Assembly (NCBI GenBank): GCA_023245765.1
Contig: JAHFJP010000007.1
Location: 1-43,900, forward strand
From: Candidatus Peribacteria bacterium
GTDB lineage: Bacteria; Patescibacteriota; Gracilibacteria; Peribacterales; Peribacteraceae
Direction of reading: 5' to 3'
Length of the DNA: 43,900 nt
Below are positions 29,641 to 40,772 of the stretch, in pieces. Within the stretch, counting starts at the first letter, position 1. Each line of letters starts with the position of its first letter. The position numbers were made by a program, and so were the translations under genes. Under the pieces are notes generated by a model. That model was not told where the DNA came from and did not search any database. It was given only the letters and a program-made list of their open reading frames with translations.

Positions 29641-29696
29641 CAAAAACAGCTTCTTGGCTCGGATGCGGGAAGTGATTGCTGTACACTGCGTCTCCC

Positions 29697-30512
29697 ATGC
29701 AGCAATATCTCGACCTTCTTCGCCATATTCTCGACCACGGTGTCAAAAAAGATGACCGCACGGGCGTAGGGACTCTGAGTACATTCGGCAATCAGATGCG
29801 GTTCAATCTGCAGGAGGGTTTCCCGCTCCTCACCACGAAGAAGCTCCACACGCGGTCGATCTTCCACGAACTCCTCTGGTTCCTGAAGGGTGATACCAAC
29901 ATCAAGTATTTGCACGATAACCAGGTGACGATCTGGGACGAGTGGGCGGATACAGATGGCAACCTCGGGCCGGTCTACGGCAAGCAATGGAGGAGATGGG
30001 AGGGGCCCGATGGCAAGGTCTACGATCAAGTCGCCGAGGTCATCGAGCAAATCAGGAAGAATCCGAATTCGCGTCGCCTGATCGTGAGTGCCTGGAACGT
30101 CGCGGATGTTCCCAAGATGGCGCTGCCGCCGTGCCACCTCCTATTTCAGTTCTACGTGAGTCCAGCAACCAGCGCAGGTCTTCGACCCGCGTTAAGTTGC
30201 ATGTTGTATCAACGGAGCTGCGACGTGTTTCTCGGAGTACCGTTCAATATTGCGAGTTATGCGCTCCTCACGCACATGATCGCGCAGGTCTGTGGCCTCC
30301 AAGTCGGCGAATTCGTTCACACGCTCGGCGATACGCACCTCTATCTGAATCATCTAGACCAGGCGAAGGAACAGCTCAGTCGCGAGCCACGGAACATTCC
30401 GCAGCTCAAACTCAATCCAGCAGTCAAAAATATCGATGACTTCAAATACGAGGACATTGAGATCCTGAATTATGATCCGCATCCATCAATAAAAGCCCCT
30501 ATTGCCATATAA
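29697..30512 (+). CDS. thyA: thymidylate synthase
   Basis: 271 residues. Methylates dUMP with methylene-tetrahydrofolate. Motifs: [38 protein letters not shown], the nucleophile in [34 protein letters not shown] and GDTHLYLNH. The start is ATG 29697 rather than the track's 29676. A seven-residue excess ([11 protein letters not shown] in place of a short loop before LSC) is encoded by a hairpin-like sequence at 30173-30191. TACACT ends 9 nt before the ATG. folA follows in the same direction. Confidence 0.96.
30173..30191. repeat. small hairpin inside thyA
   Basis: CGCAGGTC-TTC-GACCCGCG, read in frame as SAGLRPA at a loop where thyA homologues are shorter. Confidence 0.5.
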
Positions 30513-30514
30513 AC

Positions 30515-30544
30515 GTCGGGACCGGGCTCGGGACCGGGACCGGA
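30515..30544. repeat. 6-bp tandem repeat between thyA and folA
   Basis: GGGACC, GGGCTC, GGGACC, GGGACC: an exact hexamer period filling the 50-bp gap. Confidence 0.75.
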
Positions 30545-30550
30545 ATGAGG

Positions 30551-30556
30551 TATTCT
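30551..30556 (+). promoter_or_regulatory. -10 box of folA, leaderless spacing
   Basis: TATTCT followed by TTGCCT and ATG 30563. This spacing and the family N-terminus both favour 30563 over the ORF start at 30545. Confidence 0.45.
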
Positions 30557-30562
30557 TTGCCT

Positions 30563-31087
30563 ATGATTATCTCTCTGATAGTCGCTGCCAGTGAAAACAA
30601 TGTTATTGGCAAAGATAATAAGCTTCCTTGGAACTTACCAAACGATTTAAAACATTTTAGAGATCTCACAAAAGGGCATGTTGTAATTATGGGCCGTAAA
30701 ACGTTTGAATCTATTGGTAAGCCACTTCCAAATCGCCGTAATGTGATTGTTTCAAGAAATTTAAAGGAAGCTCCTGTTGGGGCTGAAGTCACTGATAATC
30801 TCGGGGAATTCCTAATGAAATTATCGATGTTCGATTTCAAAGATAAACCTTCTGAAGAAATTTTTATTATTGGTGGTGGAGATATTTTTAATAAATTTTT
30901 GTTGGAGGGTTTTATGAAATTCACGGCTGATCGAATATATCTCACCCGAGTCCATGCGAATGTAGAAGGTGATGTTTTTTTCCCGGAAGTTGATTCCTCA
31001 CAATGGAACGGATCTTTACCTGAATATCATCCAGCTGACTCAGAGAATCAATTTCCATACTCCTTCATCACGTACGAACGCTCGTGA
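30563..31087 (+). CDS. folA: dihydrofolate reductase
   Basis: 174 residues. Reduces dihydrofolate, which ThyA produces. Motifs: MIISLIVAASENNVIGKDNK, LPWNLPNDLKHF, VVIMGRKTFESIG, LPNRRNVIVS and IFIIGGGDIF. The gene is strikingly AT-rich (about 37% GC by hand count of 60-bp blocks, some near 22-30%), while thyA and the genes after it are clearly GC-richer. This suggests recent acquisition. It ends 1 bp before the convergent HPr-like gene. Confidence 0.95.
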   Translation: MIISLIVAASENNVIGKDNKLPWNLPNDLKHFRDLTKGHVVIMGRKTFESIGKPLPNRRNVIVSRNLKEAPVGAEVTDNLGEFLMKLSMFDFKDKPSEEIFIIGGGDIFNKFLLEGFMKFTADRIYLTRVHANVEGDVFFPEVDSSQWNGSLPEYHPADSENQFPYSFITYERS

Positions 31088-31088
31088 T

Positions 31089-31391
31089 TCATGACGCTGA
31101 TGAGGGCAAGATGCAGAGCTCCTCCAACATATGCATAAAGGAGGCCTGTATAGCGAGAAGGTCCTGCTGCTTCCCCCTGAGCGTGAATTTGAATCCACAA
31201 TTCGGTCCGATGCCGAGCGTCGCGACTTCCAGCCCCTTCACTGCATCATCCACAACACCCCCCGGTCCCGCAATACTCACGGCGATATTGTAATCGCCGC
31301 GCACAATGCCTCTCAACCTGTTGGCCAGTTGCTGGCAATTGAGCGCAGTGTGCCCAGACATTTTGCATTCGATGGTGACGGTCTCTTCCAT
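31089..31391 (-). CDS. HPr-like small protein
   Basis: 100 residues. The pattern TVTIECKMSGHTALNCQQLA, then YNIAVSIAGPGG, DDAVKGLEVATLGI and GKQQDLLAIQASFMHMLEEL follows the beta-alpha-beta order of HPr phosphocarriers. The His aligns with the active His of GLHARPA, but the neighbouring Arg is missing. If it is an HPr homologue it is divergent and may not take part in sugar transport. No other PTS gene is in the window. Confidence 0.5.
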   Translation of the reverse strand: MEETVTIECKMSGHTALNCQQLANRLRGIVRGDYNIAVSIAGPGGVVDDAVKGLEVATLGIGPNCGFKFTLRGKQQDLLAIQASFMHMLEELCILPSSAS

Positions 31392-31400
31392 GGGTCGCGT

Positions 31401-31429
31401 ACTGTATGCGCAAATGTTTGCGTTGTACA
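31401..31429 (-). promoter_or_regulatory. promoter of the HPr-like gene
   Basis: Minus strand: TGTACA (31424-31429), 17-bp spacer, TACAGT (31401-31406), 9 nt to ATG 31391. Confidence 0.45.
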
Positions 31430-31584
31430 GTTATCGCGCACGTGATAGATGTCGTCCTCACGATCGACAATACCCCAGATCTGCTGGTCTTCGTTTTTGT
31501 CTTCCTGAAGCCAAAAAATGATGTACACAGTCGTTCATCACGTTCATCGAAGGTATCGCGCCGGAGACCTGCGACACTGTGCTC

Positions 31585-32403
31585 ATGGCACCCGAGACAC
31601 TCATGACGGCCGATCAGGAAGTAGAAGCTGCAGTGCAGGACCTTGAGCGGCAGGCGCTCCAGAAAACGAATGTCGTTGGTGACTATGCTGGCGAGCTGGA
31701 AGAGGCCGCGGAGGATCCCGGCGAGCGTGTGGCGACCATGCGGGCGGAGAAAAAAGAGCAAGTTGTGCAGACAGTAAAGAAGAATGCTGCTCAGGCCAGG
31801 AATGCGACCAAGGATAATGCTGACCTGCATGTTGATCATTCACTCGCCGGCACAACCACACAGGGAAATGCCGGAGTTGGGGCGGGCCGTCGATCAATCA
31901 ATATCAATCCGGATGCCGTGGTGCGGGCTGCGCAGGGAAAGCAGGGAGAACAGAGCTTCAAAAATCTCGCGGCGCACGAAAACGCGCACGCGACCAAGCA
32001 GAAGATGATGCGCAATGTTCGGACGGCAAAGAAGGTCGTGGATGCATGGAGCCTTCATGAGTGGCATTCCGAGAAAGAAGGTGCAAAAGCAGAAGGAAAG
32101 GACACGAAGTCGTTCAACCGGGAGGGGCAGCCCAAGGACTATGCGAAAGCACAGGAACAGGGAAACGCACTGCAGGATCTGGGGATTCGCGAAGATGAAC
32201 TCGATACGTTCATTGCCGCCGGGGACAGTGAAGGACTCCAGCAGCGCGTGATCGAAGTCGAGGTGCAAAAGAGAGTCATCACACCGGAGGAGATGAAGAA
32301 GAATATCAATGAAGATCGCGGTTTGTATGCAAAGGCTGCACACGATGCACTGACGAAGCTTTTGCCACACGAAGCTGAAGTTCCGGCACATAGTGCGCCG
32401 TAA
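31585..32403 (+). CDS. zincin-like protein with an HExxH motif
   Basis: 272 residues. After a helical charged N-terminus, ININPDAVVRAA is followed by FKNLAAHENAHATKQKMM. HENAH fits HExxH, and the preceding strand resembles the arrangement in DUF4157-type peptidase-like domains. No signal peptide. The rest is helical and charged. ATG 31585 is preferred to GTG 31579. The 193-bp gap upstream holds only the HPr promoter and a doubtful minus-strand ORF. The family assignment is tentative. Confidence 0.55.
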   Translation: MAPETLMTADQEVEAAVQDLERQALQKTNVVGDYAGELEEAAEDPGERVATMRAEKKEQVVQTVKKNAAQARNATKDNADLHVDHSLAGTTTQGNAGVGAGRRSININPDAVVRAAQGKQGEQSFKNLAAHENAHATKQKMMRNVRTAKKVVDAWSLHEWHSEKEGAKAEGKDTKSFNREGQPKDYAKAQEQGNALQDLGIREDELDTFIAAGDSEGLQQRVIEVEVQKRVITPEEMKKNINEDRGLYAKAAHDALTKLLPHEAEVPAHSAP

Positions 32404-32407
32404 AGCT

Positions 32408-32950
32408 TCAGCCCCGAATCAATTCCAAAAATTCCTGACGTGTCTTTTGGTTCTCTTTAAAAAGCCCCTTCACGCAGCTCGTCACTGCCGTCGAGTGCTG
32501 CTTCTGGACGCCGCGCATCATCATGCAGAGGTGGCTGCACTCGATCACGACGCCGATGCCTTTGGGTTTGAGGATTTTTTCGAGTGCATCGCAGATCTGC
32601 TGGCCCATGCGTTCCTGCACCTGGAGCCTGCGCGCGTACATGTCGACAATGCGGGGGATTTTGCTGAGGCCGATCACATGCTTGCGGGGGATGTAGCCCA
32701 CATGCACTTTGCCGAAGAAGGGGAGCAGGTGGTGCTCACAGAGCGAATACACCTCGATGTCCTTCACGATGACCATTCCCTCGGTATCCACCGGCATCAA
32801 TGCGTTGTTCACGATCGTTGCGAGATCCTGATCGTAGCCGGACGTCAGGAATTTGTAGGCCTCGCTCACCCGGCGGGGGGTGCCCTTCAATCCCGGGCGC
32901 TTGGGGTCTTCGCCGAGGGCTGCGATGAGTTTGTGGATGAGGGCGTCCAT
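32408..32950 (-). CDS. folE: GTP cyclohydrolase I
   Basis: 180 residues from ATG 32950. First step of pterin synthesis for folate. Zinc and catalytic residues: [40 protein letters not shown] and [17 protein letters not shown]. The track's start at 33007 is replaced because CATACT lies 9 nt before ATG 32950 with TTCGCG 17 bp further up. Last of the minus-strand fol genes; it converges on the zincin-like gene 5 bp away. Confidence 0.95.
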
Positions 32951-32959
32951 GGGACGAGC

Positions 32960-32988
32960 AGTATGCCTTGTTTCCCGGCATACGCGAA
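32960..32988 (-). promoter_or_regulatory. promoter of folE
   Basis: Minus strand: TTCGCG (32983-32988), 17-bp spacer, CATACT (32960-32965), 9 nt to ATG 32950. The match to consensus is modest. Confidence 0.4.
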
Positions 32989-32993
32989 GACCA

Positions 32994-33488
32994 TTAGAGA
33001 CGAACAATCAGTTTGTTTGCCTTTTGGTCGAGCGTTTTGTCCAATAATTCTTCCCAGGTCTTCCCGATGACCGGGTGGGTAGCGGTCGGATCGAGAAGCT
33101 CGATCAGCGGTTCTAGGACGAACCGTCGCTCGTGCATGCGCGGATGCGGCAGAATCAGTGGCGGATCGGGTCGGATCAGGTTTCCGTGGAGCAGCAGATC
33201 CAGATCAATCGTCCGGGGACCGAATTTGAACGGAGGAGCCTTTTTTAAGTGTCGTTCGACATTGGTCAAAAATTCATAGACGTCATCCGGAGCGAGATCG
33301 GCATCGAAACCTGCAACCGCGTTGAGGAAATCGTCCTGCTGTTCGTGGTGCAGGGGGGCGCTGCGGTAGACCGACGAGAAGCGGATGCCCGGAAGGCGCT
33401 CGCGCAGCATCGTCGCCGCTGCTTTGAGGTTATCTTCGGGGTCGATGTTACTGCCGAGGGCGATGTAGATGGAGGTCATGGCAGGCAT
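32994..33488 (-). CDS. folK: HPPK, 6-hydroxymethyl-7,8-dihydropterin pyrophosphokinase
   Basis: 164 residues from ATG 33488. Transfers pyrophosphate from ATP to the pterin. Motifs: [41 protein letters not shown] and [16 protein letters not shown]. The start is chosen because TATCGT is 6 nt and TTGCAC a further 16 bp upstream. The next Met (33479, [11 protein letters not shown]) is equally good for the protein. It lies 5 bp after the hypothetical gene that separates it from folB. Confidence 0.94.
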
Positions 33489-33492
33489 GTCG

Positions 33493-34083
33493 CTACGATA
33501 GACATGGGAATATCGAGTGCAATGCATTTTGCACTTCTTCCAAATTTTTGCGCAGCAGCTCCTGATCAGGGCGCTGTCGGTGGCTTTCCATTACCCTCCA
33601 GGTGGTGGCTTTTGTGACCGCAAGTGTCATCAACATGGCCTTCTTCAGTGTAATCAGTATGTCCGAAAATTTTTCCGCACTCTGCATAATGGGGATGCCG
33701 GTCGCCGCCTGCACGAACAAACCGGACAGGAAATCTTCCAGCTTGTCCTCAGCGCTTACTGCGAGGAGCGTTGCCTGGCCTATGGCGAGGTTTTCGTATG
33801 ACCCTTCTCGTACGCGCTGTACGTCCAGGCCATACACTTTCTTGAGAAACCCATGTTCTTTCATGAGTCGATCGATCCAGGTGAGCGTCTGTACTCCATT
33901 CGGGTCTTGCACCGCTATCTGTTCCATGACCAGGTGGGGCAATGCAGGGACCTGTTCCAATGGATCCATTGCTTTGATGTGCTCGCGAGCCTCATCGAAC
34001 AGTCGCGTTCCGGCGCCCGCGACCGCCAGTTGCGGAGCGAGTTCCAGGAATTCAGCGTCGTTGTTTGGTTCCAGAGGTGTCAC
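33493..34083 (-). CDS. hypothetical protein between folB and folK
   Basis: 196 residues, soluble and helical, starting with GTG and overlapping the folB 3' end by 32 bp. The middle has an Ala/Leu-rich helix pair (ENLAIGQATLLAVSAEDKLEDF, KKAMLMTLAVTKATT). No family recognised. Its place inside the fol run may be incidental, since nothing in it resembles FolP or FolC. Confidence 0.55.
   Translation of the reverse strand: MTPLEPNNDAEFLELAPQLAVAGAGTRLFDEAREHIKAMDPLEQVPALPHLVMEQIAVQDPNGVQTLTWIDRLMKEHGFLKKVYGLDVQRVREGSYENLAIGQATLLAVSAEDKLEDFLSGLFVQAATGIPIMQSAEKFSDILITLKKAMLMTLAVTKATTWRVMESHRQRPDQELLRKNLEEVQNALHSIFPCLS
33495..33522 (-). promoter_or_regulatory. promoter of folK, leaderless spacing
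   Basis: Minus strand: TTGCAC (33517-33522), 16-bp spacer, TATCGT (33495-33500), 6 nt, ATG 33488. It lies inside the end of the upstream coding region. Confidence 0.45.
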
Positions 34084-34426
34084 GGTATCGCGTGATGGTG
34101 AGGGAGACGCCGGATGCGGGCAAAAGGGGGAATTTTCGCACGGTCACGGTCGCTGAGCAAGGCTTGTATTTGCGGAGAATCAGCCTTGCGGCATCCTCCG
34201 CAAATCGTTCAATGGTCTTTCGTTCGGTCTGCGCGAGTGCCTTCAAATCCTCCGTCACATCGACGTAGTTGATCGACTTCTTTACATCATCACTCTTCGC
34301 GGCGGCCACGGTATCGAGAGTCATCTCCACGGTCACGAGTAAACGTTGCTCAGCGTCACGCTCTGCTTTCGGGACGCCGATGTGGGTCCAGAGTTCGAGG
34401 TCGGTGATGGTGAGGAGGTCGCTCAT
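34052..34426 (-). CDS. folB: dihydroneopterin aldolase family protein
   Basis: 124 residues. Motifs: ELWTHIGVPKAERDAEQRLLV near the N-terminus, INYVDVTEDL, and TVTVRKFPLLPASGVSLTITR with the catalytic Lys. Acts between FolE and FolK in pterin synthesis. Dihydroneopterin-triphosphate epimerase shares the fold. TAAAAT is exactly 6 nt before the ATG (34433-34438). No folP or folC is in the window. Confidence 0.9.
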   Translation of the reverse strand: MSDLLTITDLELWTHIGVPKAERDAEQRLLVTVEMTLDTVAAAKSDDVKKSINYVDVTEDLKALAQTERKTIERFAEDAARLILRKYKPCSATVTVRKFPLLPASGVSLTITRYRDTSGTKQRR

Positions 34427-34562: not shown

Positions 34563-36989
34563 TTAAGAATTGTGAATGTGTTTCACTCCGAAGAGTTCCG
34601 GTCGTTCCGCGAATGAAGTCTCTGCCAGCCTCCTGAGCAGCCACCGCGTCACCGTCACCGCCGTGAAGAGCGAGAGCAGCACACCCATGCCGAGCGTCAC
34701 CGCGAAGCCGCGGACGATGGAGGAGCCTGCCATGAAGAGAATCGTGCAGGTGATGAGTGTCGCAATGTTGCCGTCCCGGATGGCCGGCCATGCATGCTTG
34801 AAGCTGGTTTCGATTGCGGTCTTCACGAGTTTGCCTTTGCGAAGCTCTTCCTTCATCCGTTCGAATACGAGCACGTTGGCGTCCACCGCCATACCGATGC
34901 TCAGTATGATGCCGGCCATGCCCGCGAGGGTGAGAACGATGTAGTTGCTGGTGACGAGGAGCAGCGGGAGCTTGAGAATCGCAAAGAGCAGGACCGCGTA
35001 GAAGCCAAGAGCGAGATCGGCCATCACGCCCAGGATGCGGTACATGACGATCATGTACACCATGAGGATCAGCGTTCCGAGGAGGGCGGCGAGGAGCGAG
35101 GTATGGAGAGCTGCGGCGCCGAGCGTCGCTTCCACCGTGTACTGACCGACCAGGTAAATGGGCGCCGGGATGGCTCCGGTATTGAGGTCCTGGGCGAGCA
35201 TGCGCGCTTCGTCGAAGTCGCCGCTCCCCGTGATCACCGCAATCCCTCCGGCGATCTCCTGCTGCACGCGGGGGGCCGAGATCATCTCGCCGCCGACGAA
35301 GATCGCAATCTGCTTGCCGATGTTGCGCTTGGTGAGCTCTTGGAAGAGCTTGCCGCCTTCGGCATCGAAGATGATCTGCACCACGGGGATATTCGTGACC
35401 GAATCCGCGGTAACGTTCGCCGCGCGGAAGTGCTTGCCATCGAGCGCGGTATCCTTCCAGCCCGTTGGCTCCAGAGAGAAGAAGAGCAGGCGCAGTGTCA
35501 CGGCGGGCTCACTCGTCGTCACCTGTCCGCCTTGCAGGCGTGCGGCGATCTCCGTAGCGCGCTTTTCGCTGTCTGCACCGGAAATAATCAGCTCGTCGTA
35601 CGTGGCGGTGTCGGGAGTCACGGTCACGGCTTTATCAAGACGGATAATGTGGTAGCCGAACTGTGTTTCGACGATGCCGGTGATCTCGCCGGGCTTTTTG
35701 AGAGCGAAGACGGCTTCTTCAAACGCGGGAGCCATCACGCCGCGGCCGAAGGATCCCAGGCTGCCGCCGTCACTCTTCGACGGACCGTCGGACTGCGCGC
35801 GCGCGAGCTGCGCAAAATTTGCGCCATGGTCGAGTTCGGCCTTGAGGCTCGTAGCCTTCTGCAACGCCTGCTCCTTTGTTCTGGTGATGGAGGACTCCGC
35901 ACCCGATGCCCCCGCGTAACTGACCAGAATATGACTTGCGGCAAGCTGCTCGCCACCGTGTATGAAAGAATTCAAGAAAACAATGCGCGAGACAGCATCG
36001 GTCTGGACCTGCTTGAGTGATCCCGGCTGAATGCTGCGGAGGACCGCTGCAACGCGCGTGTCGACGCCGGCATCGATCTGTGCCTTCTCGTGATGGGCGG
36101 TTGTGGTTGCTGCTTCCGTCTTCGCGAGGAGTGCGAATGCCCGGGTCGCTTCGCTCACGATACGACCGGTCTCCGTGGGTCCGCGAAGAACTTCAGCCAG
36201 AAAAATCCCCGGAACCTGCTTCTCGGTCATGCTGCCATCGGCGTTCTGTTTGGGTTGCGCGATGCTGCCGTCGTGGAGCACCACTTTGCCCGGCTGCATG
36301 GTCCAGAGGTCCTCAAGACCTTTGGGAACCTGGTCACGGAACAGTGTCTTGCTCGGCTGGAACGCCACGCCGAGCTCACTGCCCATATCCTGGCCTTCCT
36401 TCACCAGCGTCGAACCGCTCTCGGTGATCCGCCGCAGCGTCGTCTGCGCCTTGAGTCGTACTCCTTTGGTGTACTCGGCGGTGACTTCGGTGAACGGCTC
36501 TTTGAATTCCAGTTGGATGGTTTTGCCGACGACTTTGATGCACTCCTGCACATCGACGACGCCGGGACATTCCACGAGCAGGTGGCGCTCATTACCGACG
36601 TATGACGGCGTGATCGTCGCTTCACTGACGCCCAGCGAGTTGATGCGGCGTTCGAGAACGGTGCGGATGGCCTCGACGAGATTGGTCTGCTGTTCGGTGA
36701 TGCTCTGCTTCTGCGCGCGCGCGAGGTTCACGTCCTGCGCCGACGCGCCGCTCTTTTCCAGTCGTGCGATTTCGGCGTTGATATCGTCGAGCTGTTTATA
36801 GATTTCTTCCTCCGAAATACGGAAATCGAGCTGCGTTCCTCCGGCCAGGTCCAGTCCCAGGTGGAGCGCGGGGCTGCGGAGGAATCCCGGCGCCCAGGAT
36901 TTCCACTGCTGCGGCGCGACGATGAACATCGCCAGCACGCCGACGGCGGCAACGACGAGGGGCCAGGTGAGGGAACGCTTTTGGGCCAT
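34563..36989 (-). CDS. secD: SecD with an embedded parvulin-type PPIase domain
   Basis: 808 residues, versus roughly 500-620 for ordinary SecD. N-terminal membrane segment (about 9-25), then LGLDLAGGTQLDF (45-57) and P1-base strands RTVLERRINSLGVSEATI (109-126) and HLLVECPGV. About residues 350-455 form a parvulin/rotamase domain: ASHILVSYAG, FAQLARAQSDGPSKSDGG, LGSFGRGVMAPAFEEAVFAL and ETQFGYHIIRLDK. The P1 head returns at 536-606 (IIFDAEGGKLFQELTKRNIG, FVGGEMISAPRV). The C-terminal membrane block is SecD-like, with GIILSIGMAVDANVLVFERMKEE. Uses the proton gradient to pull exported proteins through SecYEG. No secF is adjacent. A SecD-like lipoprotein gene lies upstream. Confidence 0.93.
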   Translation of the reverse strand: MAQKRSLTWPLVVAAVGVLAMFIVAPQQWKSWAPGFLRSPALHLGLDLAGGTQLDFRISEEEIYKQLDDINAEIARLEKSGASAQDVNLARAQKQSITEQQTNLVEAIRTVLERRINSLGVSEATITPSYVGNERHLLVECPGVVDVQECIKVVGKTIQLEFKEPFTEVTAEYTKGVRLKAQTTLRRITESGSTLVKEGQDMGSELGVAFQPSKTLFRDQVPKGLEDLWTMQPGKVVLHDGSIAQPKQNADGSMTEKQVPGIFLAEVLRGPTETGRIVSEATRAFALLAKTEAATTTAHHEKAQIDAGVDTRVAAVLRSIQPGSLKQVQTDAVSRIVFLNSFIHGGEQLAASHILVSYAGASGAESSITRTKEQALQKATSLKAELDHGANFAQLARAQSDGPSKSDGGSLGSFGRGVMAPAFEEAVFALKKPGEITGIVETQFGYHIIRLDKAVTVTPDTATYDELIISGADSEKRATEIAARLQGGQVTTSEPAVTLRLLFFSLEPTGWKDTALDGKHFRAANVTADSVTNIPVVQIIFDAEGGKLFQELTKRNIGKQIAIFVGGEMISAPRVQQEIAGGIAVITGSGDFDEARMLAQDLNTGAIPAPIYLVGQYTVEATLGAAALHTSLLAALLGTLILMVYMIVMYRILGVMADLALGFYAVLLFAILKLPLLLVTSNYIVLTLAGMAGIILSIGMAVDANVLVFERMKEELRKGKLVKTAIETSFKHAWPAIRDGNIATLITCTILFMAGSSIVRGFAVTLGMGVLLSLFTAVTVTRWLLRRLAETSFAERPELFGVKHIHNS

Positions 36990-37116
36990 AGGGGATCACA
37001 AGATCCGGGGAAGGATAGCAACACGAAGTCACAATTCATAGACTGAAAGGAACAGGGAAAAATGTACTATCTGTCGATTTGAGCCAATCTTCGCTCTCGC
37101 GCGTCGAAGACGCACA

Positions 37117-37782
37117 TTAGGGTGCCGGCGTGAACTTCACGTGCAATCCCACATTGACGTCATCCGCGAACGCGGCGGCCAGGGCGCCATTCGGGATGCC
37201 TTCAATCGAAATCGAGGTTTGCTTGTCGGTGGCATCAATCGTTTTTTTACTCATCAGCTGACCCCGGACGAAGATACCGATCACGCTGCCGCGGTTTTTG
37301 GCGAACATGTCCTTGAGGAGCGCCTCACCCTCCTTGGTGAACTGAATGACGACGGCGCCCTGCTCGGCACCCGTCACCTTCGTTATGCCGGCCGTGATCC
37401 AGTCGACGTGCTTCGTGACGATGCCCGTCTCCTTGAATTCGCCATACTTTTCGCTGATGAGATCGCCCTGTCCGGAATCCACCTGCTTCATGATCGCCAT
37501 GGTGAATGGGACGGCGAGGGAGTCCTGCAGAAGCTTTGCCATTTCCTCGTCCCCGACCGTCACGTCCAACATTGTCGCATCGCCGTCTTTGCGAACGCTT
37601 TGGGCAATGAGCTTCTTCTCCTTTGCCAGCACTCGCCCTTCGATGGTGCGCTGAACGGCTTCCGTGAGCTTGGTCACCCGCTCAGCATCTTTCGTATCGA
37701 ATGTCAGCGAAAAGCGAACAGTTTTCCCTCCGCAGGCGGTGAGGAGGAGCGTGAGGGCGAGGGCGGAGAGGAGTTTCTTCAT
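37117..37782 (-). CDS. lipoprotein resembling the SecD periplasmic (P1) domain
   Basis: 221 residues. Signal peptide with lipobox MKKLLSALALTLLLTACGG (Cys17). The N-terminal part, RVTKLTEAVQRTIEGRVLAK followed by GDATMLDVTVGD, parallels the P1 base of SecD. The C-terminal part, VVIQFTKEGEALLKDMFAKN, IGIFVRGQLMSKKT and SISIEG, parallels SecD residues 536-590 of the neighbouring gene (FDAEGGKLFQELTKRN, IAIFVGGEMISAP). No further membrane segment. It lies 127 bp upstream of secD on the same strand, so the two may be functionally linked. The homology is judged by eye from residue pattern. Confidence 0.65.
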   Translation of the reverse strand: MKKLLSALALTLLLTACGGKTVRFSLTFDTKDAERVTKLTEAVQRTIEGRVLAKEKKLIAQSVRKDGDATMLDVTVGDEEMAKLLQDSLAVPFTMAIMKQVDSGQGDLISEKYGEFKETGIVTKHVDWITAGITKVTGAEQGAVVIQFTKEGEALLKDMFAKNRGSVIGIFVRGQLMSKKTIDATDKQTSISIEGIPNGALAAAFADDVNVGLHVKFTPAP

Positions 37783-39779: not shown

Positions 39780-40724
39780 TCATTGTGCTATCCACTGGAA
39801 TCCCAGCTTGGTGGCATCCCACGCGATCTTGCCATCCCAGGGTGTGCCCTCGGCGACCGCGTCTTTCTTCGGCATGTACTTCTCGAGCCACGCGAGCTTC
39901 TTGGCGAGGATGGAGCTCTTCTCGGCTCGCACGCGGAACGCGTGCTCCTGGGTCATGTAGTAGGTGACGCTCTCGGCGAGGTCTTCGAAGTTATCGGCCT
40001 GGTAGGCGTAGCCCGTGACAAACTGGCGGCGGACAGCGGTGGATTTTCGCGTCTTGTCGTTCTCCCACGAAATTTTGTAGAACTCCACGCTCGGATCGTC
40101 GTTGTAGATCACATCCTCTCCGTCGCGGAAGGCGCTTGCTCCGCTCTTTTCATCACCTGTGAGGCACGTGATATCCCGGAAGTGGCCGAGACCTTCGTGC
40201 ATCAGGAGGCCGATGAATTCCTGATCCGGCACTGTTCCCGAGACGAGGATAACACCACGGCCGGCGAGGCCGCGGTGCTTGGGGTTATCGTAGAGAACGC
40301 TGAATGTCTGAAGTTTTTCCAGGCATGCCGGATCGAGCAGACTCAAGACTGCCTCGGCGAGCGGGCGCTGTGCCTCGTGAATGCCGGACTGATCGAGGAT
40401 CGTCTGCAGACGGGTTTTCGTCGCGGGAATTTCCATCAGTAGGGGTTGTTCGTCCCTCGGCACGGCTCGAGACAGGCCGTCATTCACAGGTGTCGCCATC
40501 ACCGTCTCCTTGACCGGCCGCACGCGCACCTGGTGGCGACGAGGGCCGTAGATCACACGAGCGGCCAAATCTGTCCGTGGGAAGGGCAGAGCATGCTCTG
40601 CCCCTACAGTACCGTTGCTTGCAGCCGAACGAAGTTGTGCTACACTGGTAGGCAGACACAGTGCAACAGAGAAGATTGTCACGAAGAGGATCAAAGCCAA
40701 TGGTTGGAGAGCGTTCTTCTGCAC
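39780..40724 (-). CDS. secreted metallopeptidase-like protein
   Basis: 314 residues from GTG 40724. Signal peptide: QKNALQPLALILFVTIFSVALC before TSVAQ. The mature part contains LLMHEGLGHFRD, and downstream NFEDLAESVTYYM recalls the third-ligand Glu helix of gluzincins. The His spacing is HExxxH, not HExxH, so activity is uncertain. The track's start at TTG 40772 is rejected because that TTG is the first part of the -35 box. A 20-bp palindrome (40584-40603) is translated in frame just after the signal peptide (TVGAEHALPFPR). Confidence 0.65.
   Translation of the reverse strand: MQKNALQPLALILFVTIFSVALCLPTSVAQLRSAASNGTVGAEHALPFPRTDLAARVIYGPRRHQVRVRPVKETVMATPVNDGLSRAVPRDEQPLLMEIPATKTRLQTILDQSGIHEAQRPLAEAVLSLLDPACLEKLQTFSVLYDNPKHRGLAGRGVILVSGTVPDQEFIGLLMHEGLGHFRDITCLTGDEKSGASAFRDGEDVIYNDDPSVEFYKISWENDKTRKSTAVRRQFVTGYAYQADNFEDLAESVTYYMTQEHAFRVRAEKSSILAKKLAWLEKYMPKKDAVAEGTPWDGKIAWDATKLGFQWIAQ
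40584..40610. repeat. GTAGGGGC-type palindrome inside a secreted-protein gene
   Basis: GGGCAGAGCATGCTCTGCCC is a perfect 20-bp palindrome followed by CTAC. It is the same class as 8596-8620, but here it lies in the coding sequence, in frame. Confidence 0.85.
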
Positions 40725-40743
40725 GTGTTTCCCGAAGTGGTAC

Positions 40744-40772
40744 TTTATATCATATTTATCTTTAGATGTCAA
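40744..40772 (-). promoter_or_regulatory. promoter of the secreted metallopeptidase-like gene
   Basis: Minus strand: consensus TTGACA (40767-40772), 17-bp spacer, TATAAA (40744-40749), leader about 19 nt to GTG 40724. The -35 box overlaps the start codon of the divergent rlmD gene. Confidence 0.7.

Follow-up and report, generated by a model that had tools for sequence, protein, structure and literature searches.

SecDF is thought to pull proteins from the Sec channel through a proton-driven swing of the head of the SecD P1 domain, and the shares of substrate capture and power stroke in this pulling are still argued. PrsA, a Gram-positive lipoprotein and parvulin foldase, is tethered to the membrane and assists folding outside the cytoplasm, where proteins leave Sec. 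The head of SecD P1 contains a substrate-binding pocket (PMC11470409), the movement of P1 is linked to the flow of protons through the membrane part (PMC11470409; PMC8669966), and the parvulin PpiD of E. coli contacts the P1 head (PMC11470409). Duplicated SecD material in one genome is described for Streptomyces coelicolor, which has secDF plus secD-secF (PMC4139356), and SecD2F2 of Vibrio is a second SecD/SecF copy (PMC11470409).

The locus described here lies in a stretch of 43,900 nucleotides (the window), from contig C68 of a 1.45-Mb draft genome that is 95% complete. Record titles and taxonomy place its relatives in Ca. Peribacteria/Peribacterales, within the Peregrinibacteria; Ca. Peribacterales is an order of very small, uncultured bacteria. 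A gene next to secD encodes a small exported protein that had been predicted to mimic part of SecD P1.

The lipoprotein and its relation to SecD P1

The product of the gene starts MKKLLSALALTLLLTACGGK, and its signal peptide is MKKLLSALALTLLLTAC (table 1). The lipobox of the original prediction is there as LTAC, and its cysteine, C17, is invariant in the alignment of 27 relatives. LspA and two Lgt are encoded in the same genome. With the conserved cysteine and these enzymes, the 221-aa protein is predicted to be a lipoprotein with a mature part of ~205 residues. Neither the sequence nor the AlphaFold model has a membrane segment beyond the signal peptide, in agreement with the earlier claim that the mature protein contains no membrane block.

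Compared directly with the adjacent SecD, the lipoprotein is 28% identical over 106 residues (two-sequence BLASTP, E 4e-5). When family profiles were compared with hhalign, residues 113-213 aligned to SecD 508-606 (probability 98.3, E 2.4e-14), so the resemblance of the segments first quoted is real; a second, collinear match places residues 33-75 on SecD 98-140. The original prediction had limited the match to SecD residues 536-573, and this limit does not stand, since the whole of P1 matches: against SecD P1 from which the parvulin insert had been cut in silico, the alignment covers 178 columns (hhalign probability 99.2, E 8.3e-20), and the top probability among 30 column-shuffled control profiles is 0.7. 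The lipoprotein HMM also matches insert-free SecD proteins (430-530 aa) that belong to other Patescibacteria families; the alignments run unbroken over residues 21-194, extending to 211 in some genomes, with E values as low as 7e-21. Judged by these profile alignments, the mature part of the lipoprotein is homologous to the entire SecD P1, base and head.

Pfam PF22599 (SecDF_P1_head) matches the window lipoprotein with 21.2 bits (E 2.7e-4), under its gathering score of 27, and matches 32 of the 41 lipoprotein orthologs at E<=0.01 (best 4.2e-9). The SecD model TIGR01129 gives 17.9 bits (E 0.0013) and does not reach its curated cut-off of 244.4 bits. Because the lipoproteins fall below the Pfam and NCBIfam cut-offs, routine annotation would leave them as 'hypothetical lipoprotein'. 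The six TM helices and the proton-relay Asp motif of SecD were not found in the mature lipoprotein, the GLDLxGG motif is absent and the lipobox occupies its place, and no Pfam match to a rotamase (parvulin) domain was obtained at E up to 1. A sequence-only search of the PDB gave a single weak match, to PrsA (E 0.036), which was judged to be due to chance and was not borne out by the fold search.

The AlphaFold2 model of the lipoprotein, calculated with 41 orthologs as input, has a pLDDT of 93.0 and a pTM of 0.86. In a Foldseek search of the PDB, SecD/SecDF entries take the first nine ranks (best E 1.2e-9; 3aqo_C, the isolated P1, E 1.3e-8). The anticipated structural similarity to SecD P1 was found in VIA-align as well, with Z values of 14.1, 13.6, 13.4 and 13.2 for SecDF chains and 8.0 for the next fold, the first non-SecDF row. 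The rmsd to SecDF is 7.6-9.6 (7.8 over 186 aligned residues of 3aqo_C), a large value that is probably due to a rotation of the head against the base; SecDF forms that differ by a turn of ~100 degrees are described (PMC8669966).

The secondary-structure elements (E, strand; H, helix) of the lipoprotein before the insert point are E20-28, H33-53, E58-66, E69-76, H79-90 and E95-101, followed after it by E114-122, E126-136, E139-148, H150-162, E167-172, E175-181, E190-196, H199-214 and E215-219. They pair 1:1, in order, with those of SecD before its insert (E51-58, H104-118, E125-131, E134-142, H147-154, E160-165) and after it (E511-517, E521-528, E535-541, H543-555, E562-565, E568-571, E583-587, H592-605, E611-617), the insert falling between 165 and 511; the pairing does not include a short strand of the lipoprotein (108-110) or two additional helices of SecD (61-102). 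The full-length SecD model is only moderate (pLDDT 77.5, pTM 0.43) and was therefore used for element order alone. On the basis of the models, the lipoprotein is predicted to have the P1 base-plus-head fold.

Table 1. Positions in the window of the lipoprotein gene, the neighbouring secD and their parts
Feature	Position	Strand	Basis
secD, 808 aa, parvulin domain inserted in P1	34563..36989	(-)	Pfam, model
SecD TM2-6 block, proton-relay motif GMAVDANVLIFER	34623..35129	(-)	Pfam, alignment, model
SecD P1 head and C-terminal base, aa 508-617	35139..35468	(-)	SecDF_P1_head (512-609), E 2e-26
Parvulin PPIase domain in SecD P1, aa 347-452	35634..35951	(-)	Pfam Rotamase_3
SecD P1 base, N-terminal half, aa 51-165	36495..36839	(-)	Pfam SecD_1st aa 106-164; model
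Lipoprotein-secD gap, 127 nt	36990..37116	(-)	sequence
Predicted stand-alone SecD P1 lipoprotein gene, 221 aa	37117..37782	(-)	sequence, profile matches, model
P1 base C-terminal helix and strand, residues 199-219, invariant FADD-N; counterpart SecD 592-617	37126..37188	(-)	alignment, models
P1 head, residues 114-196; counterpart SecD 511-587	37195..37443	(-)	PF22599, hhalign
P1 base, N-terminal half, residues 20-101; counterpart SecD elements 51-165	37480..37725	(-)	profile matches, models
Predicted lipidated cysteine C17	37732..37734	(-)	invariant in alignment
Lipoprotein signal peptide, residues 1-16; lipobox LTAC with next residue	37735..37782	(-)	sequence, alignment

In the adjacent SecD, the Pfam SecD/SecF membrane block covers aa 617-785. 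GLDLAGG and D703 of GMAVDANVLIFER are kept, invariant in 33 orthologs, and we take the role of this Asp to be that of D519 in SecD. The parvulin of SecD is the sole Rotamase_3 match in the genome. The whole insert spans aa ~171-495, about 325 residues, with aa 171-345 lacking a Pfam match, and the parvulin insertion in P1 is present in the whole family (Ca. Peribacterales) and in some sister families.

It had been noted that no secF is nearby and suggested that the lipoprotein may compensate. The first part is correct for the window but not for the genome, where an intact secF (299 aa) lies on a different contig, upstream of trigger factor (G000:C50:39522-40421). This gene rules out compensation for SecF, and SecD retains its full P1 and the invariant D703. 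In the broader form of the idea, the lipoprotein would replace a missing or defective SecF, SecD P1 or YajC, and YajC is indeed below cut-off throughout Ca. Peribacterales. However, SecF and the P1 and TM motifs of SecD are intact, and YajC gives no match above cut-off in the sister families either, which are themselves without the lipoprotein; an exchange of the two is therefore not supported, and we attach next to no credence to replacement. As a side observation, secF overlaps an upstream 461-aa gene by 4 nt and is followed by trigger factor (L073:3141-5422, in G000:C50); the 461-aa protein is probably membrane-anchored and has no Pfam match.

Distribution and gene neighbourhood

In a profile search of a class-wide sample, the lipoprotein was found in 55 of the 57 sampled genomes of the family (Ca. 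Peribacterales), in open frames of 210-326 aa. Outside the family, every match among those listed for this sample looks like SecD, and the sole frame below 480 aa among them (G182, 335 aa) is TGA-interrupted. In 379 genomes of the phylum, the listed matches outside the family lie in frames of at least 391 aa, and no stand-alone lipoprotein was found among them. When 84,980 species genomes were scanned with a pattern, 41 loci were obtained, almost all of which carry the label Peribacteria or Peregrinibacteria. One locus titled Kiritimatiellales (L098, JAIPIN010000005.1) has the Peribacterales gene order and the lipoprotein, and is probably mislabelled or misbinned. Three genomes (G026, G004, G018) gave no match to either the lipoprotein or secD and are therefore uninformative on its absence. 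The near-complete genome G195 (100%) encodes SecD with parvulin, and no lipoprotein was found in it; hence the lipoprotein is not indispensable.

The gene pair is conserved, as the original prediction implied: in 53 of 55 genomes the lipoprotein gene immediately precedes secD, in the same orientation on one contig, and in the remaining two both genes are near contig ends. Contigs C26 and C19 of genome G029 (L059, L154) have overlapping ends (124 bp, 99%), which suggests an insertion of ~1.5 kb between lipoprotein and secD; the putative insertion holds a 199-aa HD-like gene, a 166-aa ORF and a 180-bp repeat (95.6%). The gap between the two genes is usually 2-33 nt (22 of the 24 gaps measured in the relatives and the window are at most 33 nt), and such short gaps fit co-expression. 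No promoter-like or terminator-like site was found in the 127-nt gap of the window. The surrounding order is also kept family-wide (metalloprotease-like, CoA_binding, NTP transferase, lipoprotein, secD, folB, folK, folE), which makes the adjacency, taken by itself, a weaker argument for a functional link than it may seem.

An exported product encoded just upstream of secD could be a secretion monitor of the VemP, SecM or ApdA type, in which translation arrest senses Sec capacity and controls the translation of secD; known arrest peptides are located upstream of secDF (PMC10987492; PMC11470409). However, conservation in the lipoproteins tracks the folded P1 and not a C-terminal arrest motif. 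Their last residues vary freely (11 of 27 end in Pro) and RAPP occurs in none of them, and RNA folding at the start of secD is not unusual (z averages -0.24 across 24 loci, two of which lie below -2). The lack of both a conserved C-terminal motif and RNA structure at the lipoprotein-secD junction argues against an arrest peptide, and we regard this role as very improbable.

Three further features of the neighbourhood are recorded here. A 330-aa protein with HEGLGH (HExxxH-like) and no Pfam match above cut-off is encoded at 39780-40772 (-); its gene is kept upstream of the lipoprotein across the family, and it is possibly a new metalloprotease. Folate and thymidylate genes (thyA-like, dfrA-like, folE, folK, folB) occupy 29676-34426 beside secD, and the folate genes are retained in most relatives. 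Between dfrA and folE, a 274-aa ORF at 31579-32403 (+) has only a weak FlgO match (E 0.005).

Origin, constraint and proposed function

A tree calculated from P1 columns groups the lipoproteins in a single clade with a support of 1.0 and a long stem of 1.6. Their sister among the SecDs has a support of 0.598, and duplication of the group's own SecD is therefore not proven. The SecD of G195 branches first within the family. The lipoprotein has a single origin, which probably postdates the entry of the parvulin into SecD; in the simplest order of events the parvulin was inserted before the family radiated, and the lipoprotein was gained once G195 had split off. Its loss in G195 is possible.

The lipoproteins are ~5x more divergent than SecD P1 (mean pairwise distance 2.19 versus 0.46 substitutions per site). 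W128, R173, P197, F205 and D207 (window numbering) are near-fixed in them and not in SecD, and the head residues I/L-G-I/L-F-V-R-G and the base FADD-N are equally conserved. The SAP and GG motifs, each ~100% in family SecD, have been lost. To judge from the alignments, this pattern of constraint is that of a protein kept for its own job, not of a decaying copy, and given the divergence and the loss of SAP and GG the substrate pocket may work differently.

High divergence, with a stem branch of 1.6 and the group-specific W128, R173 and P197, would also fit a P1 repurposed for an envelope role unrelated to Sec, such as a chaperone for particular lipoproteins or for large cysteine-rich surface proteins, adjacency to secD being merely the place of origin. 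Among the proteins that Peribacteria encode, many are large, Cys-rich and predicted to be exported (PMC4736985). However, despite its divergence the gene has stayed beside secD, nearly overlapping it, in 53 of 55 genomes, although this counterpoint is weakened because the order of the neighbouring genes is well kept too; on balance we find repurposing rather improbable.

The conservation of the C-terminal base leads to a further alternative. FADD-N is among the best-conserved parts of the lipoprotein, as expected of a docking face, and the base could dock on SecF P4 or on SecD, making the protein a regulatory or structural partner (brake, adaptor or decoy) that binds no substrate but controls how the parvulin-loaded P1 of SecD itself is placed or how active it is. 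Co-encoding with secD and the loss of SecD-specific motifs would agree with this, as would the interaction of the periplasmic domains P1 and P4 in SecDF (PMC8669966). On the other hand, the base residues may owe their conservation to folding alone, and the head residues are conserved equally with them. We consider a purely regulatory or structural partner unlikely, although after the tethered holdase or ratchet described below it is the leading reading, while noting that the accessory-subunit or decoy/regulator roles first read from the sequence are possible.

The reading that we prefer, and to which we give about an even prospect of being correct, is that a stand-alone P1, base and head, has turned into a membrane lipoprotein that serves as a passive substrate holdase or ratchet beside SecD-parvulin and SecF. 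After export and lipidation, the protein would sit on the outer face of the membrane beside SecYEG-SecDF, its base likely docked on SecD or SecF. Its head would bind unfolded stretches of emerging proteins, and the lipid anchor would hold P1 in place, so that it could act as a passive holdase or as a ratchet limiting back-sliding and could hand chains to the parvulin built into SecD. Since it has no membrane helices, the lipoprotein is not itself proton-driven; the power stroke, if any, would stay with SecD-SecF. A more specific proposal, which we offer tentatively and with somewhat less than even confidence, is a Sec translocon with two P1 domains at the same exit: that of SecD, parvulin-loaded and proton-driven, and a second one, lipid-tethered and undriven, acting in trans.

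If the two-P1 proposal is true, P1 is separable from the SecDF motor, and substrate capture becomes testable apart from pulling; a P1 freed from the motor and tied to lipid throughout an order would be a ready reagent for separating capture from power stroke. The arrangement in Ca. Peribacterales, with parvulin inside SecD and P1 outside, suggests a translocon whose outer side has been remodelled and a protein-export machine with an undescribed extra arm. The SecD P1 domain is known, and what is new is its free-standing, lipid-anchored, order-wide form; in the open-access papers searched, neither a stand-alone SecD P1 nor a SecD-parvulin was found to be described, which does not prove that no description exists.

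Comparison with known systems

The closest counterpart is P1 of SecDF (Thermus thermophilus 3AQO/3AQP, Deinococcus radiodurans 5XAN), with which the lipoprotein shares profile homology and the predicted base-plus-head fold. It differs in being a separate protein in which a lipid anchor replaces TM1 and TM2-6, so that there is no proton path, and in lacking the SAP and GG motifs while having invariant residues of its own. By analogy, the lipoprotein may work like PrsA as a tethered folding helper at the Sec exit; in contrast to PrsA it has no parvulin domain, which is here found inside SecD. PpiD and YfgM, the ancillary pair of the E. coli translocon, have single TM anchors and other folds than the lipoprotein, and we know of no homology between them and SecD. 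Near the exit of SecY, their ancillary domains make contact with the head of SecD P1 (PMC11470409). VemP, ApdA and ApdP share gene position and an export signal with the lipoprotein, but they are conserved at C-terminal arrest sequences, whereas the lipoprotein corresponds to a whole folded P1 domain. Finally, the second SecD/SecF copies of other bacteria are full membrane proteins, whereas the extra gene of the Peribacterales encodes P1 only.
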